Assembly: GCA_016124575.1 (NCBI GenBank)
Contig: WGNM01000005.1
Span: forward strand, 84,118-148,117
Length of the DNA: 64,000 bases
Source: Cryomorphaceae bacterium
Lineage (GTDB): Bacteria; Bacteroidota; Bacteroidia; Flavobacteriales_D; Sanyastnellaceae
Direction: 5' to 3'
Shown: piece by piece, positions 50,631-59,427 of the stretch
Layout of the letters: the number at the start of each line of letters is the position of its first letter
Numbering within the stretch: the stretch's first letter is position 1
Notes under the pieces: model-generated
Told to the model about the DNA's origin: nothing
Database searches by the model: none
What the model saw: the letters and a program-made list of their open reading frames with translations, nothing else
Program-made: the position numbers and the translations under genes

Positions 50631-51515
50631 ATGCAGCAATTTTCCATCAAAGATCTTGAGTCCTTTACCGGTATTAAGGCCCATACTATACGTATATGGG
50701 AGCAAAGGTACAATCTTCTGGAGCCGCAGCGGACATCGACCAACATTCGTTATTACACCGACAACGACTTAAAGCACTTGTTGAATGTAGGTGTACTCAT
50801 AGACAACGGGTACAAGATTAGCAGAATAGCTGAGATGACGGAAGTTGAAATGACCGCAATCATTTCCAAACTCAACACCGAAGATACCAAAGAGCAGCAC
50901 TATTTGAATTTGTTGAAGATCAGCATGCTCAACTACGACGAAGCCTTGTTTTGTTCGGTAGTGGATGCATATTTAGCTGACCATTCTGTAGATCGCATTT
51001 TTGAAAGACTTTTCATGCCCTTTATGCACCAAGTTGGCATACTGTGGCTGACGAGTGTTATTTGTCCGGCACAAGAACATTTCATTTCAAACCTTCTCCG
51101 CCAAAAATTATTTAGCTGGATTGACCAATCGCCAATCTCTGTGGATGATGCCAAGCCTTTGCTCGTTATGTTTCTTCCGCAAGGCGAGATTCACGAAATT
51201 AGTTTGCTCTTATTTCATTACATGGCCCGTCAAAAGGGGCGAAAGAGCATTTTTCTCGGACAGTCGGTGCCGTTTGAAGATTTACTTCAGATCTCACAGA
51301 AATATCCGCATGCACAGTTTGTTTCGTACTCCACAACATCGCCTTCAGCCAAGAACGCTCAGCAATATATAGACAGGATACACAGAGAGTTTAGCAATTC
51401 TCAGGTTAAGTTTCACCTCGGAGGAAAGATGCTTCAGGAAGTTAAAGTACCTGCTGACTCATGCGTGACTGTATATACTTCTGGAGGCCAATTGGCAGAA
51501 TCTATATTTATCTGA
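50631..51515 (+). CDS. MerR family regulator with cobalamin-binding domain (CarH/LitR-like)
   Basis: A 294-residue regulator starting at the ATG at 50631 (a GTG three codons upstream is possible). Residues 1-70 are a MerR winged helix (FSIKDLESFTGIKAHTIRIWEQRY, then NIRYYTDNDLKHL). Residues about 90-165 are the four-helix B12 cap with the W-x9-EH motif (W139, E149, H150), and about 175-294 a Rossmann B12-binding fold with E186-I-H188-E-I-S191, where His188 is the expected lower ligand of cobalt; the usual Gly is Ser. In Thermus CarH the residue after the Trp is a His that ligates cobalt in the light state; here it is Leu140. Homologues repress carotenoid and sigma genes in the dark. An ECF sigma gene follows 121 bases downstream. 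Confidence 0.9.
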   Translation: MQQFSIKDLESFTGIKAHTIRIWEQRYNLLEPQRTSTNIRYYTDNDLKHLLNVGVLIDNGYKISRIAEMTEVEMTAIISKLNTEDTKEQHYLNLLKISMLNYDEALFCSVVDAYLADHSVDRIFERLFMPFMHQVGILWLTSVICPAQEHFISNLLRQKLFSWIDQSPISVDDAKPLLVMFLPQGEIHEISLLLFHYMARQKGRKSIFLGQSVPFEDLLQISQKYPHAQFVSYSTTSPSAKNAQQYIDRIHREFSNSQVKFHLGGKMLQEVKVPADSCVTVYTSGGQLAESIFI

Positions 51516-51547: not shown

Positions 51548-51577
51548 TGTTTAAAAAATCTGTTAAAAAGTTAAACA
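51548..51577 (+). promoter_or_regulatory. Distal operator-like dyad upstream of the ECF sigma gene
   Basis: TGTTTAA (51548-51554), 16 bases, TTAAACA (51571-51577): a perfect 7-bp inverted repeat. An identical arrangement occurs 52 bases downstream. Candidate binding site of the adjacent MerR/B12 regulator. Confidence 0.65.
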
Positions 51578-51599
51578 GCTCGTGTTTCGTGTCGGAAAA

Positions 51600-51629
51600 T
51601 GTTTAATCTTTGTATCGAAAGGTTAAACA
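51600..51629 (+). promoter_or_regulatory. Proximal operator-like dyad overlapping the ECF sigma promoter
   Basis: TGTTTAA (51600-51606), 16 bases, TTAAACA (51623-51629). Its spacer contains a -7-like AATCTTTG (51605-51612), and the sigma ATG is seven bases after the dyad, so a bound repressor would block transcription. Confidence 0.68.
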
Positions 51630-51636
51630 AAAAGAT

Positions 51637-52140
51637 ATGTCAACAATCGAATTCAATAATCTGCTTTCAACGCACCGCGATTTTTTACAGGGATTTGCGT
51701 ACAATTTTACGCGTGACCATGAAGACGCCAACGACTTGATTCAAGACACCTTTTTAAAAGCCTTGAGGTACAAGGACAATTTCAGAGAAGGGACCAATAT
51801 CAAGGGGTGGTTGTTTACCATCATGCGGAACATATTCATCAATAACTACAAGCGGAAGAAGTTTCAGAACACCATAACAGACAGCACCGATAATTTGTAT
51901 TATTTGAATGCTTCGCAAGACATGCGGTACGATGGCGTGACGGGTAAAATTGACGAAAAAGACATTCGTTCAGCCATAGGGGATTTAGGCAACGACTTCC
52001 GTGTTCCTTTTACGATGTTCATAGAGGGATATCATTACGATGAGATTTCGGAGAAGTTATCGATTCCGATGGGTACAGTGAAAAGTAGAATATTTCATGC
52101 ACGCAAGAAGTTGATGACTCAATTGGCAGATTACAGATGA
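51637..52140 (+). CDS. ECF-type RNA polymerase sigma factor
   Basis: A 167-residue sigma-70 family factor starting at the ATG at 51637 (MSTIEFNNLLS). A TTG at 51610 in the same frame would lie inside the operator. Region 2 is GFAYNFTRDHEDANDLIQDTFLKALRY (about 20-46) and KGWLFTIMRNIFINNYKRKKF; region 4 is GYHYDEISEKLSIPMGTVKSRIFHARKKLM (about 128-157). There is no anti-sigma gene beside it. Its partner upstream is the MerR/B12 regulator, a pair that in other Flavobacteriia controls carotenoid genes; none are in this window. The last 10 bases overlap the convergent methyltransferase gene. Confidence 0.93.
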   Translation: MSTIEFNNLLSTHRDFLQGFAYNFTRDHEDANDLIQDTFLKALRYKDNFREGTNIKGWLFTIMRNIFINNYKRKKFQNTITDSTDNLYYLNASQDMRYDGVTGKIDEKDIRSAIGDLGNDFRVPFTMFIEGYHYDEISEKLSIPMGTVKSRIFHARKKLMTQLADYR

Positions 52141-52970: not shown

Positions 52971-55900
52971 ATGAAGTATCTAAATCGACTATCATTACTG
53001 TTATTCACCATGTGGACAATCACAGCGGTGGCACAACCAACAGTAACTACTGGCTTAACATTGGAACAATACGTCAACGAAGTCTTGCTTGGTTCTGGTG
53101 TTCAAGCATTTAACATCCAGTTTACCGGTGATCCAGTTCAGTTGGGTTATTTAGAAGGTGTAGATCCTGCCGCATTTCCCTTAGAATCTGGTTTGGTTTT
53201 GTCGAGTGGTGCTTCTAATAACATAGCTTCATGTGGATTTGACGATGTTCCTTTTGGATCAGGGGTTTCTGGCGATGCAGACTTGTTGAATATTGCGAAC
53301 TCAGTGCCTGGAATGATAGGTCAGAATTTCAACGTAGGATCGGTAAACGACCTGTGTGTTTTAGAGTTCGACTTTGTGGCAACGGGCGATACTGTGAAGT
53401 TCAATTACATTTTTGGTTCAGACGAATATCTAGCATGGATCAATAGTTCATTCAATGATATTTTCGCCTTTTTCCTTTCAGGCCCTGGTATTACAGGCCC
53501 GTACGATAGTCCGGCTGGTTTTCCGGATGGTGCCATGAACATCGCTCAAGTTCCGAATACTGACCCACCGCTGCCTATTACCATTTCGTCGGTGAATCCG
53601 GGCATCAATGCTCAGTACTACAACGACAATCCGAACAACGATGAGGTGTGCATCAATGGTTATACAATAAAGTTGGAGGCTCTGGGAGAGGTTATTTGTG
53701 GAGAAACGTACCACATAAAATTGGCCATTGCTGATGGATCGGATACTGCCCTTGAGTCGATTGTAATACTTGAGGCGGGATCATTTACAAGTAATAGTGT
53801 TGTTCAGGTTGATCTTTCGATCGATGTGGGTGGGCCGGATGCAGATACGATGTATGAAGATTGTGGCGTAGCGACATTGACATTTACACGCCCTATCGAT
53901 ACCCTAATCGATATTGAAGAGATGATTGTAATTGAATACCAAGGTACTGCAATCAACGGGGTGGATTACACCTTGCTTCCTGATACGGTTATTTTTGCAC
54001 CAGGAGTTCAAAGTGTAAGTTTCGATGTGGATGCATTTGAAGATGGATTGGCAGAAGGAATTGAAGAAGTTATTTTCGAAATTTTGAACTTAGCGGCCTG
54101 CAATGGTGACGGGTTAACCAGCTATTTCCAGTTTTTCATTAACGACGAGCCAGAGCCATTGGTGGTTACTGGTTATACGACAGAGATGTGTCAGGGAGCT
54201 GATTTAGAAATTGAACCAATCATTGAGGGAGGTTATGGTAACTTCACCTACGACTGGTCGACAGGTGAAACTGATCCAAGCATTTTCGTTAGTCCCGGCG
54301 CTACAACAACCTACAACGTTATCGTTAGCGATACCTGTGGTATGCCTTCTGATGATGCCGATATCTTGGTTAACGTGCTCATATTCCCTCCTTTGGAAGT
54401 GAATATTTTAGGGGGTGATCTATTGTTAGAATGCAATGGTTTCGCGACCATTTCTGGTTCAGCTGCAGGTGGAGATGGTGTTTATGAATGGACATGGGAA
54501 GATCAAGACGGAAACAACCTATTTGGATTTGATAATACCTTGTGGTACAATGCTTGGCAAGGTGCTGATCAAATTGTTTTAACAGTAACGGATGGTTGTG
54601 GATTTGGGGAATCGAGTGTCATAAATGTCGCCATTAACGCGCCCGCTATTGTTATTGATTTCGAAGGTCCACTATCTGTTTTGTGCAATGCGAATTTCAC
54701 AATTGATCCGAATGCATCGGGAGGCAGTGGAGGCTTGAACTACACATGGACGCAAGGGTTTAACTTTTTAGGGTTTAATTCAACCTTGACAACATCGACG
54801 TCTTCGGATATTACCATTACATTGAACGTTAGTGATTTTTGTGGACAATCGGAGGAAATCGACATCGACATTGAGGTTGAAAGTCCACCAATTGCCGTCA
54901 ACATGCCATTGGAGCTGACGGGTCCATGTACAGAAGTATTTGAGATAGTTGCTTTCACCGATGGTGGCAGTGGCGGAGGTACCTATCAGTGGTTTGCTGA
55001 TGGTGCATTGGAAGCTACAGGCAACAACGTGAATAACATTACACCGTTGGATTTTCAGTCTTTCAACGATGCTTTGATTTCACTCACTGTTACAGACGGT
55101 TGCGGTGCTACAGACACACAGAGCACCGTCATCAACATCGTGAACCCAGCTTTGGAAATAGAAATTGGTGAAGATATTTATGCAAGTTGCATAGACAATA
55201 CAGCCATTGCAGTTGATATTTTAAGTGGAAGCGGAGGATACCAGTACGAGTATTTTGTTGCCGATACCTCGCATTCAGTAACATCCGACATCGTTTTACA
55301 ATCATTCAACACCGTTCCTGTAAGTGTGAATGTAACCGATGGCTGTGGTGGATTTGCGACTGATCAATTGCTGTACATTATTCCAGACATTCCATTGAAC
55401 CTTGTTTTGAGTGCTGACACATCTATTTGTGCGGGTGATGGCATTTCGATATCTGCTTTAGCGAGTGGAGGGGAAGAAGGTTTTTATTACTACTGGCCGT
55501 TGATCGGACAATTTGGGCCTGATCAGTATGTTGCTCCTTATTCGACAACTGGGTTTGAAGTGATTGCTACAGACATTTGTGGTCGCACCATTTCTGGAAC
55601 AATCGGCGTTGAGGTTCAGTTCTTATTTAGCAACTTCTACGTACAAGACTTAGAAGATAATCTTTACCAGTTCACGGCTACACCTGAGCCAGAGTGTGAT
55701 GGTTGCATTTATTCATGGTATTTCGGCGATGGAGATTCAAGCGATGAAGAAGCACCGATGCACCAATATGATGGTTTGGGCGATTACATTGCAAGTCTAA
55801 CCGTCACCAATAGCATTGGATGTACAGATTCAGCTTATACAACTATCGTAGGACCGATTGTATTCTACGTACCGAACGCGTTTTCTCCGAACAATGATGG

Positions 55901-56135
55901 AATAAACGATGTTTTCAGAGCTTATGGAAGTGGTATCAGCGAGTTTGAGATTACCATATTCAACCGTTGGGGAGACGTTGTTTTCACAAGTACCAACATC
56001 GAAGATTTCTGGGACGGGTCGGATGCTGGTGGTGCTTACTTCGTGCAAAATGAAGTGTACTCGTACATTTTGAGAATAAAAGGAAACAATACTGACGGAA
56101 TAGAGCAGAATGGCTCCATATCTGTTTTGAGATAG
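52971..56135 (+). CDS. Choice-of-anchor L surface protein with T9SS type B sorting domain (copy 1)
   Basis: A 1054-residue exported protein with signal peptide 1-21 (cleavage after AVA). Residues about 25-265 form the choice-of-anchor L domain (TLEQYVNEVLLGSGVQAFNI, FPLESGLVLSSG, GDTVKFNYIFGSDEYL, GSDTALESIVILEAGSF). A Calx-beta-like module follows (about 285-375: GTAINGVDYTLLPDTVIF, DAFEDGLAEGIEEV). Then come several Ig-like units with Cys-flanked strands, and a PKD domain near 880-955 (YSWYFGDGDSSDEEAP). The last 91 residues, FYVPNAFSPNNDGINDVF through FNRWGDVVF to SVLR, are the type B sorting domain. A probable adhesin at the cell surface. Its paralogue follows 136 bases downstream. Confidence 0.92.
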   Translation: MKYLNRLSLLLFTMWTITAVAQPTVTTGLTLEQYVNEVLLGSGVQAFNIQFTGDPVQLGYLEGVDPAAFPLESGLVLSSGASNNIASCGFDDVPFGSGVSGDADLLNIANSVPGMIGQNFNVGSVNDLCVLEFDFVATGDTVKFNYIFGSDEYLAWINSSFNDIFAFFLSGPGITGPYDSPAGFPDGAMNIAQVPNTDPPLPITISSVNPGINAQYYNDNPNNDEVCINGYTIKLEALGEVICGETYHIKLAIADGSDTALESIVILEAGSFTSNSVVQVDLSIDVGGPDADTMYEDCGVATLTFTRPIDTLIDIEEMIVIEYQGTAINGVDYTLLPDTVIFAPGVQSVSFDVDAFEDGLAEGIEEVIFEILNLAACNGDGLTSYFQFFINDEPEPLVVTGYTTEMCQGADLEIEPIIEGGYGNFTYDWSTGETDPSIFVSPGATTTYNVIVSDTCGMPSDDADILVNVLIFPPLEVNILGGDLLLECNGFATISGSAAGGDGVYEWTWEDQDGNNLFGFDNTLWYNAWQGADQIVLTVTDGCGFGESSVINVAINAPAIVIDFEGPLSVLCNANFTIDPNASGGSGGLNYTWTQGFNFLGFNSTLTTSTSSDITITLNVSDFCGQSEEIDIDIEVESPPIAVNMPLELTGPCTEVFEIVAFTDGGSGGGTYQWFADGALEATGNNVNNITPLDFQSFNDALISLTVTDGCGATDTQSTVINIVNPALEIEIGEDIYASCIDNTAIAVDILSGSGGYQYEYFVADTSHSVTSDIVLQSFNTVPVSVNVTDGCGGFATDQLLYIIPDIPLNLVLSADTSICAGDGISISALASGGEEGFYYYWPLIGQFGPDQYVAPYSTTGFEVIATDICGRTISGTIGVEVQFLFSNFYVQDLEDNLYQFTATPEPECDGCIYSWYFGDGDSSDEEAPMHQYDGLGDYIASLTVTNSIGCTDSAYTTIVGPIVFYVPNAFSPNNDGINDVFRAYGSGISEFEITIFNRWGDVVFTSTNIEDFWDGSDAGGAYFVQNEVYSYILRIKGNNTDGIEQNGSISVLR

Positions 56136-56271: not shown

Positions 56272-59200
56272 ATGAAAAGAAGAATATGTTTAACAGCCAT
56301 TGGTGTTTTAATGGTTGGTGTTGTAATTGCGCAACCAACAGTTACGACCAATTTAACAGTCGAGGAGTATGTAAATGATTACTTGCTCGGGAATGGAATT
56401 CAAGCATCGAATATTACTTATTCAGGAGCACCCGTTCAGATTGGCGTTGTTGAGAATGGTATTGCCAACGGACTTCCTATTGAGGCGGGCTTGGTGCTTT
56501 CTACCGAAGCTGCTACAAATCTCGACTGCTCGCCAGGATTTATAGATTTTGGCACAGGTATTAATGGCGAGCCAGATTTGCTTTCAATTGCCAATAGTGT
56601 GCCGCCTCTGATAGGTCAGAATTTTAACGTGCTCGGTGTTTTTGACGTCTGCACATTAGAGTTTGACTTCGTTGCCACAGGCGATACCATGAGTTTCAAT
56701 TACATTTTTGGATCCGATGAATACCTCACATTTGTCAATACCCTGTACAACGATATCTTTGCTTTTTTCCTCTCTGGTCCGGGCATTACAGGCACGTATG
56801 ATAGTCCGCCGGCTTTTCCAAATGGCGCCATCAATATCGCCACGGTGCCAAATTCGAATCCACCGCTTCCAATCACCATATCGAGCGTTAACAATGTCAC
56901 AAATACAGAATATTATCTCGATCACGCAGCAGGGACACCGAATGATATCCCGACCTGCTTGAATGGGAATACAATTTCCTTGCGCGCTTTTTCAGAGGTT
57001 CAATGTGGAGAGACTTACCACATCAAATTGGCAATTGCTGATGGCAGTGACCCTGCGCTGGCATCTTATGTTATGCTTGAAGCCGGTAGTTTTCAATCGA
57101 CCACTGTTGTAGAAGTAGCACTTTCCATAGATGTGGGTGGCGACAACCTTTTCGAAGATTGCGGAGAAGGCGTGTTGACCTTTACCCGTCCGGTAGATAC
57201 AGACATCGAACAAGAATCGATGGTTTTAATTGATTACTCTGGATCGGCAATCAATGGGGTAGACTATACCTTACTGCCCGACACCATTATTTTCCCAATT
57301 GGTGTTTATTCATTGAGCTTTCCGCTCGATGCGTTTGAAGATGGAGTTTCTGAGGGCGTAGAAGATGTGACCATGCAAATAGTAAACATTGCCGCGTGTG
57401 ATGGTATTGGCGTGACCTCTTATTTTGAATTCACCATAACTGATGAGCCAGAGCCATTGGTTGTGAACGATTTAACAGTGAATTTCTGCAATGGGGTACC
57501 TGTAGAGCTCGTTCCTTCAATTGAAGGAGGTTATGGAGTGTTTTCATATGAATGGTCGAACAACCAGACCGATGAAACCATATTTGTGACAGAGTTTGCC
57601 AATACGACTTATTCAGTAATTGTTTCTGACACTTGCGGCATGTCGCCAGATGATGGAGTATTCACCTTGGTAGGCTGGCCTGCATTGGAGTTGGAGTTGA
57701 TAGGAGATGTGATTAGCAACGGACAAGTAGAGCTTGATTGTAATGCATTTGGAACCCTTGAAGTTGATGCAACTGGCGGATCAGGCGATTTCTCATATTA
57801 TTGGTACAACCAGAACGGTAATAACTTGTTTGGGTTTGAAGAGAGTCTTTTTGTTGGTTCATGGAACGGCGAAATGACAATCAACGTTGATGTTACCGAT
57901 GAATCGTGCGGAAATGTTGAAACATTGTCTATAGACCAAGTCATTTTATTTCCGGCGATGTTTCTGACATTACCGCAGACATTGCAAGTGAGCTGTGGGA
58001 CATTGCAAAGTTTGACCGTTGGAATAGAAGGTGGACAAGCACCATTTCAGTACAATTGGTATGTGAACAATGTCTTTCAAAGCAATGCAGCGACATATAA
58101 CTTCACCGCTGCGAATGATGCTACGATAGCTTGTGTGATAACAGATGCTTGCGGACAAGAGCAAACCGTATTTATGGAATTGACTGTGCTCACCCCAGAA
58201 GTGGTTGTATCATCACCCACCTTGTTTGAAGGGACATGTTTAGATGAGTTCAGTATTACGGCAAATGCTGCTGGCGGTTCAGGAGTAATCACGTATCAAT
58301 GGTCAGATGGGACGGGCATAATTGGCAACGAACAAACCATTACCTATCAGTCGAACGTGGATGTTGTATTGACAGTAACAGCTATCGATGCATGCGGCAC
58401 ACAGGCAACATCATCCACTGCGGTTCAGATAGTAAACCCATTGTTGGTTGTTGATCTGGGTCAAAATATTTTCGCCAGTTGCATTGATGTAACGGAGATT
58501 CAACCGATCATTACAGGTGGGGTTGAACCGTTCGAATTTCAGTGGTTTGTTGCCGATACAGCTTATTCGAACACCCAAAACATCAATATACAGTCGTATG
58601 AGACCATGGTTGTTGTTGTACAGGTGACGGATGTATGCGGACAATTTGATGAAGACAACACCATTTATTTCGTGCCAGATATTCCCGTCAACGTCACCGT
58701 TGTTCCGGATACATTGATTTGTTTTGGCGACTTCATTTCAACTGTAGCAACTGCAGAAGGAGGAGAGGGAGGATTTACCTATTACTGGCCGGAGTTGGAT
58801 CGTGAAGGCGATACCCAAACGGTTGGTCCGCTGCGCGACACCACCTTGTTTGTTGTTGCAACAGATATTTGTGGCAAGACAGGGATAGGCAGTGTTGATA
58901 TTGACGTACAGCGATTGATTGCAAGCTTTGTTTCTGAAGAGATAGAAACCAACTTGTATCAGTTCACCACCGAAACGAATATAGATTGCACCGATTGTTT
59001 GTATGATTGGGATTTCGGTGATGGATCATCCGCGCTGGAGCGCGACCCTTTGCATCAGTTTGACGGACGATTTGAGTACACCACACAGTTGGTGGTTACC
59101 TCGCCAATTGGTTGTCAGGGCTTTTATCACGCACCGGTTGTAGTTCCGATTTTATTGTATGTCCCCAATGCCTTCACACCCGATCAAGACGGTATTAACG

Positions 59201-59427
59201 ACTTTTTCCAAGTGTATACAAGTGGCATCGACGAGTTTAGCATTCAGATATTCAACCGTTGGGGAGAGGTTGTTTTTGCTTCTCAGGATCCCGAAGCCAT
59301 TTGGGATGGTAGCCACCAAAACGGCGATTATTTCGTGCCGAATGGAACATATGTTTGGCTCATTGAGATCAACGGAGTGAACTTTGATGCCCGCAAAGAA
59401 ACGGGTACTGTTACAATTTTGCGATAG
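56272..59427 (+). CDS. Choice-of-anchor L surface protein with T9SS type B sorting domain (copy 2)
   Basis: A 1051-residue paralogue of the preceding gene with the same module order and clear similarity over the whole length: signal peptide 1-20, anchor L domain (TVEEYVNDYLLGNGIQASNI, LPIEAGLVLSTEA, GDTMSFNYIFGSDEYL), Calx-beta-like module (GSAINGVDYTLLPDTIIF), Ig-like units, a PKD domain (YDWDFGDGSSALERDP) and a type B sorting domain from YVPNAFTPDQDGINDFF to TVTILR. The two copies are conserved most in the anchor and sorting domains and differ in the central Ig region, as expected for old tandem duplicates under diversifying use. Likely a surface adhesin exported by T9SS. Confidence 0.92.
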   Translation: MKRRICLTAIGVLMVGVVIAQPTVTTNLTVEEYVNDYLLGNGIQASNITYSGAPVQIGVVENGIANGLPIEAGLVLSTEAATNLDCSPGFIDFGTGINGEPDLLSIANSVPPLIGQNFNVLGVFDVCTLEFDFVATGDTMSFNYIFGSDEYLTFVNTLYNDIFAFFLSGPGITGTYDSPPAFPNGAINIATVPNSNPPLPITISSVNNVTNTEYYLDHAAGTPNDIPTCLNGNTISLRAFSEVQCGETYHIKLAIADGSDPALASYVMLEAGSFQSTTVVEVALSIDVGGDNLFEDCGEGVLTFTRPVDTDIEQESMVLIDYSGSAINGVDYTLLPDTIIFPIGVYSLSFPLDAFEDGVSEGVEDVTMQIVNIAACDGIGVTSYFEFTITDEPEPLVVNDLTVNFCNGVPVELVPSIEGGYGVFSYEWSNNQTDETIFVTEFANTTYSVIVSDTCGMSPDDGVFTLVGWPALELELIGDVISNGQVELDCNAFGTLEVDATGGSGDFSYYWYNQNGNNLFGFEESLFVGSWNGEMTINVDVTDESCGNVETLSIDQVILFPAMFLTLPQTLQVSCGTLQSLTVGIEGGQAPFQYNWYVNNVFQSNAATYNFTAANDATIACVITDACGQEQTVFMELTVLTPEVVVSSPTLFEGTCLDEFSITANAAGGSGVITYQWSDGTGIIGNEQTITYQSNVDVVLTVTAIDACGTQATSSTAVQIVNPLLVVDLGQNIFASCIDVTEIQPIITGGVEPFEFQWFVADTAYSNTQNINIQSYETMVVVVQVTDVCGQFDEDNTIYFVPDIPVNVTVVPDTLICFGDFISTVATAEGGEGGFTYYWPELDREGDTQTVGPLRDTTLFVVATDICGKTGIGSVDIDVQRLIASFVSEEIETNLYQFTTETNIDCTDCLYDWDFGDGSSALERDPLHQFDGRFEYTTQLVVTSPIGCQGFYHAPVVVPILLYVPNAFTPDQDGINDFFQVYTSGIDEFSIQIFNRWGEVVFASQDPEAIWDGSHQNGDYFVPNGTYVWLIEINGVNFDARKETGTVTILR

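Follow-up and report, generated by a model that had tools for sequence, protein, structure and literature searches.

Phased inverted repeats before an ECF sigma gene as putative operators of a CarH-like regulator in Bacteroidota

The window considered here, by which we mean the whole 64,000-nucleotide stretch of a Cryomorphaceae bacterium genome that was analysed, contains an ECF sigma factor gene preceded by two copies of a long inverted repeat, with a gene for a MerR regulator directly upstream. The locus raises the question of which protein, if any, would use these repeats as an operator, and what it would control by doing so. The elements concerned are as follows.

50631-51515, + strand: CarH-like MerR regulator, 294 aa, the presumed dyad binder (Pfam, NCBIfam and PDB matches)
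51548-51577, no strand assigned: distal dyad TGTTTAA-N16-TTAAACA, putative operator O1, from sequence, upstream of the -33 region
51582-51584, + strand: place of the -33 element, a degenerate GTG in the window and TTTGG in most relatives, from an alignment of 38 windows
51600-51629, no strand assigned: proximal dyad TGTTTAA-N16-TTAAACA, putative operator O2, from sequence, covering the -7 box
51605-51612, + strand: -7-like box AATCTTTG inside the proximal dyad; TTTAATcTTTG is highly conserved in the family promoters
51637-52140, + strand: gene for an ECF sigma factor of 167 aa, presumed to be the target (PF04542, 1.2e-15; PF08281, 2.8e-10)

Both dyads match the pattern with zero mismatches, their starts are 52 bp apart, and the proximal copy covers the -7-like box and stops seven bases before the sigma ATG (51637), all of which agrees with the sequence-only reading that drew attention to the locus. 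That reading also called the two 30-bp dyads identical, which holds for the 7-bp arms and the spacer length but not for the spacer sequences. A scan of the window allowing up to two mismatches gave three dyad matches where 0.49 were expected. The genome-wide search that had been proposed as a check found no perfect match other than these two dyads in the genome, which is 3.68 Mb in size. At two mismatches the whole genome gave 26 matches and the reversed-pattern control 42, and because this total does not exceed the control, the two-mismatch scan is uninformative as a site finder and only near-perfect sites carry information. The perfect pattern occurs in 48 of 81 family genomes, mostly one to three times in each, and the reversed pattern gave zero in all but one of the 81.

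The order MerR-sigma is maintained across the window's family, and two dyads nearly always occupy the intergenic region before the orthologous sigma gene, so the expectation that the pair would be kept before sigma genes in relatives is borne out there. Among promoters with a recognisable dyad pair (start-to-start distances of 34-70 bp were searched), 35 have their dyads 52-55 bp apart and three, all from other families, 42-44 bp apart; no other distance was found among the accepted pairs. These spacings are five or four helix turns, and such helical phasing fits the cooperative binding that had been proposed from the paired, evenly phased design. The 38 aligned windows, which are mostly family sigma promoters and include a few rows that are off-register matches, give the consensus TTTGTTTAA...TTAAACAAAa-tTTGg-...-tTGTTTAATcTTTG...TTAAACAAA, in which the distal dyad is followed by a -33-like TTTGG and then by the proximal dyad enclosing the -7-like box. 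The proximal dyad is the most conserved block of the promoter, and the window's own -33 element is weak. Housekeeping promoters of Bacteroidota are marked by a -33 TTG and a -7 TAnnTTTG. As a putative operator, the pair is conserved over a large branch of Bacteroidota.

Genomes of this kind commonly carry AT-rich repeats, and the dyads might be taken for RNA hairpins or chance AT-rich palindromes. We give this a negligible probability: the perfect pattern is essentially missing from reversed controls, the promoter would not transcribe the distal copy, which is upstream of it, and the distance between copies tracks the helix repeat while the spacer sequences vary. The reversed controls, the phasing and the rhodopsin test described below all contradict it, and a pair of protein-binding sites is the reading that we pursue.

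The upstream neighbour had been described as a MerR regulator with a B12-binding domain, and Pfam confirms this (PF13411, 5.9e-16; PF02607, 5.3e-9; PF02310, 4e-4): an N-terminal MerR HTH is followed by a four-helix B12-binding_2 domain and then by a Rossmann B12-binding domain, whose match falls under its gathering score. Thermus CarH is the top PDB match both by sequence (E about 1e-27) and by fold, with only about 22% identity in the structural alignment, and CarH is the best NCBIfam model at 86.5 bits, far under the equivalog cut-off of 400. The Wx9EH motif is present as WLTSVICPAQEH; in 30 homologues no variation is seen at W139, E149 or the axial H188, and very little at H150. From the lower-axial motif D/ExHx2G/P...SxT/V...GG the window protein keeps ExH, has S at the G/P position and retains SxT and GG, both of which vary among the 30 homologues. 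The window genome also encodes a cobalamin adenosyltransferase, and sensing of adenosylcobalamin (AdoCbl) by the regulator is likely.

Alternatively, the regulator could act as a dyad-bound repressor without need of B12, as CarA does, and be switched by some other signal or by an antirepressor. This is unlikely, although it has in its favour the partly eroded lower cobalamin motif together with two precedents: CarA of M. xanthus, whose similar layout places two dimers, binding cooperatively, on two inverted repeats over ~55 bp in all (PMC8156234, PMC9304148), and LitR class II, which works through a LOV partner (PMC9758184). CarA, however, lacks the Trp of Wx9EH, which is invariant here, as are the Glu and the axial His; the genome has the adenosyltransferase, and the fold is like that of CarH's cobalamin domain. 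We continue with an AdoCbl-sensing, CarH-like repressor as the preferred reading.

Gene order bears on whether this protein would be the binder. A search of 60 relatives recovered the MerR gene in 51; in one family genome (G003) crtB is present and MerR was not found. In other families of the order MerR is linked to carotenoid genes, where the dyad separates the MerR gene either from sigma-crtI-crtB or, at the sigma-less loci L044, L054, L055 and L065, directly from crtI; at L065 and L060 a dyad also stands upstream of the MerR gene itself. Because the dyads stay with MerR where sigma is absent, it is the MerR gene, rather than sigma, that is their constant partner. The half-site TTAAACA includes the TnnACA core that CarH operator repeats share (PMC9304148). 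The sequence-only reading had inferred the neighbouring MerR protein as the binder, and both the conservation of the sites and their co-location with its gene, even in sigma-less loci, speak for it; we consider with good confidence that the dyad pair would be the operator of the adjacent CarH-like regulator.

Known members of this group provide the comparison for such an operator. The window system is like CarH of Thermus thermophilus and Bacillus megaterium in the domain order, fold, Wx9EH motif and axial His of the regulator, and in having TnnACA in each half-site, an operator overlapping the promoter and a carotenoid target. It is unlike CarH in that its target is an ECF sigma gene and in that an N16 inverted-repeat pair takes the place of three to four tandem 11-bp direct repeats (nnnnTnnACAn) (PMC9304148). 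The earlier statement that known regulators of this kind bind tandem inverted repeats is correct for CarA of M. xanthus, the B12-independent paralogue, but not for CarH (PMC9304148), and since the characterised CarH operators are tandem direct repeats, the mode of DNA binding would differ here. The operator design departs from those of CarH and is more like the one that CarA uses at the carB/crt promoter of M. xanthus, where one inverted repeat lies upstream and a second over a promoter element, although its half-sites have another sequence and spacing. LitR/PplR class II proteins of Pseudomonas likewise have two operator copies, one of them over a promoter element, and a regulon that includes photolyase and cryptochrome genes (PMC9758184). 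Their site, T(G/A)TACA-N12-TGTA(C/T)A, is unlike these dyads, and unlike the window regulator they keep the four-helix B12 subdomain alone and have a LOV partner.

The presumed target has sigma-70 regions 2 and 4 only (PF04542, PF08281). No anti-sigma gene follows it, the next gene being a convergent methyltransferase. Two tandem paralogous secreted proteins of ~1050 aa are encoded in the window at 52971-56135 and 56272-59427 (+), and a gene for a similar protein comes directly after the sigma gene in many family genomes (L024, L026, L027, L029, L035-L037, L039, L043).

The crt genes of the window genome (crtI, crtB, idi, crtD, cruF and lycopene cyclase) are on another contig, unlinked to MerR-sigma. 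No dyad was found at this crt operon, and a promoter for the ECF sigma factor was therefore sought there. In 28 family genomes the region ahead of crtI shares the element TGAACAA-N14/15-TGTT, perfectly in 13, with at most one mismatch in 21 and with at most two in all 28; shuffles gave means of 0.02, 0.29 and 3.4, respectively, a comparison that is descriptive because the element was derived from the same sequences. The window genome (G000) has two matches at locus L047.

Contig C2:51729-51755: ECF-type promoter before crtI, TGAACAT-N14-TGTC, two mismatches
Contig C2:57140-57166: second ECF-type promoter match, ~50 bp before a crtZ-like gene inside the crt operon

A scan of the genome for this promoter gave eight matches, two of them within the crt operon, against three in controls, which is not enough to delimit a regulon for the sigma factor. 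The crtI-upstream element looks like an ECF promoter and would fit a relay from the regulated sigma gene, which suggests a cascade from a CarH-like repressor through an ECF sigma factor to carotenoids. Activation of the sigma gene by its own product was considered and rejected: its promoter does not have TGAACAA-N14/15-TGTT at the right spacing, for which reason a housekeeping -33/-7 promoter is preferred. In M. xanthus, CarQ is also an ECF sigma factor in a light-carotenoid pathway and activates a crt gene (PMC9304148), but it belongs to a B12-independent branch and is held by the anti-sigma CarR, whereas the sigma gene here has no anti-sigma neighbour and would itself be under a CarH-like operator.

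Away from MerR, family dyads are found before crtI-crtB (L098), before rhodopsin genes accompanied by a blh or cyclase gene (L104, L107, L108, L109, L115), before photolyases, where they are shared with divergent genes (L102, L103, L106, L109), and before secreted fasciclin proteins (L099, L100, L102, L103, L105, L106, L110-L114), with examples of these gene identities checked by family search. No rhodopsin gene was found in the window genome. Of its three one-mismatch dyad sites, L004 and L005 lie in no obvious regulon context. The third, the best remaining dyad of the genome (contig C1:1293-1322; L178), is placed as expected from the family pattern, some 40 bp before a fasciclin (FAS1) gene.

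Across the class, a dyad with at most one mismatch lies within 300 bp upstream of 28 of 60 rhodopsin genes (16 perfect) in a sample taken without kinship correction, while shuffles of the same set gave a mean of 0.15 and a maximum of 2, and the reversed pattern 0. A matrix trained on family loci (L016-L043, L068-L097), in which sigma-promoter sites dominate and a few other family sites are included, placed 29 of 57 rhodopsin genes above the 1% false-positive level, and none of the 60 coding controls. In a second set, made up of 80 genes that include some from named organisms but none from Dokdonia or Polaribacter, where light induction of rhodopsin has been published, and that may overlap the first in part, 35 had the dyad (20 perfect; shuffles 0.29). 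The culturable relatives Marivirga arenosa, Hymenobacter amundsenii, Algoriphagus antarcticus and Thermaurantimonas aggregans are among those whose rhodopsin gene is preceded by a dyad. About half of the rhodopsin genes have no recognisable dyad. In two genomes (G238:C1, G265:C119) the rhodopsin gene is close to a CarH-like MerR gene. Taken with the carotenoid and photolyase sites, the dyads of the rhodopsin genes, which code for light-driven pumps, point to an undescribed light-response regulon.

That dyads also occur far from the MerR gene might indicate a different transcription factor as their binder. We judge this very improbable: across families the MerR gene stays next to the dyads whether or not sigma is present; the half-site agrees with the CarH TnnACA consensus; and a MerR protein is present in 59 of the 60 rhodopsin genomes, against 184 of 295 in the class as a whole, figures uncorrected for relatedness. 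The CarH-like regulator is retained as the probable binder.

From the observed sites, with their conservation, phasing, position and target genes, we infer the following mechanism, to which we assign a probability of roughly 0.7. One regulator dimer would occupy each 30-bp inverted repeat, and the ~52-bp phasing would set two dimers on the same face of the helix, allowing cooperative binding. With the distal dyad abutting the -33 region and the proximal one covering the -7 box and the start of the ECF sigma gene, RNA polymerase would be excluded. Loss of the bound state, most likely by photolysis or lack of AdoCbl, would release the sigma gene, whose product would then drive the unlinked carotenoid operon from the TGAACAA-N14/15-TGTT promoter. 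Other dyad genes would be released directly, namely the fasciclin gene in the window genome and rhodopsin, photolyase and crt genes in relatives.

The place of the distal dyad, immediately upstream of the -33 region, would also suit a MerR-type activator, and classical MerR proteins can activate. Such a role is improbable here, as a proximal dyad over the -7 box and start region favours occlusion, several rhodopsin dyads start only 32-38 bp before the ATG, and CarH/LitR proteins are known as repressors (PMC8156234, PMC9758184).

With repression as the preferred mode, we think it on balance probable that a light regulon extends across the class, in which a CarH-like repressor with an operator type of its own, the phased TGTTTAA-N16/17-TTAAACA dyads, would directly control rhodopsin, photolyase, fasciclin and carotenoid genes, with a two-step ECF-sigma route to carotenoids in one family. 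A literature search on CarH/LitR with proteorhodopsin or Bacteroidetes found no description of it, nor, in the searchable papers, an operator for CarH-like regulators beside Bacteroidota carotenoid genes or a regulator for Bacteroidota rhodopsin genes; most subscription journals lay outside this search and the novelty is provisional. If true, this would supply the missing regulator of rhodopsin in these bacteria, and the regulon, especially its rhodopsin genes, would be the part of interest to specialists. Phototrophy based on rhodopsin is common in surface waters, which gives its light switch a wider interest. A CarH-type repressor with an inverted-repeat operator and an ECF-sigma relay would mean that a single sensor allows one-step as well as two-step wiring. 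With the operator defined, control of both carotenoid and rhodopsin genes becomes testable using a single protein and a short stretch of DNA as probe.

In the intergenic regions of L036, L039 and L026 several dyad copies have arms that have shifted to TGTTGAA or TGTTCAA, possibly a sign that they have co-evolved with the DNA-binding domain of the regulator.
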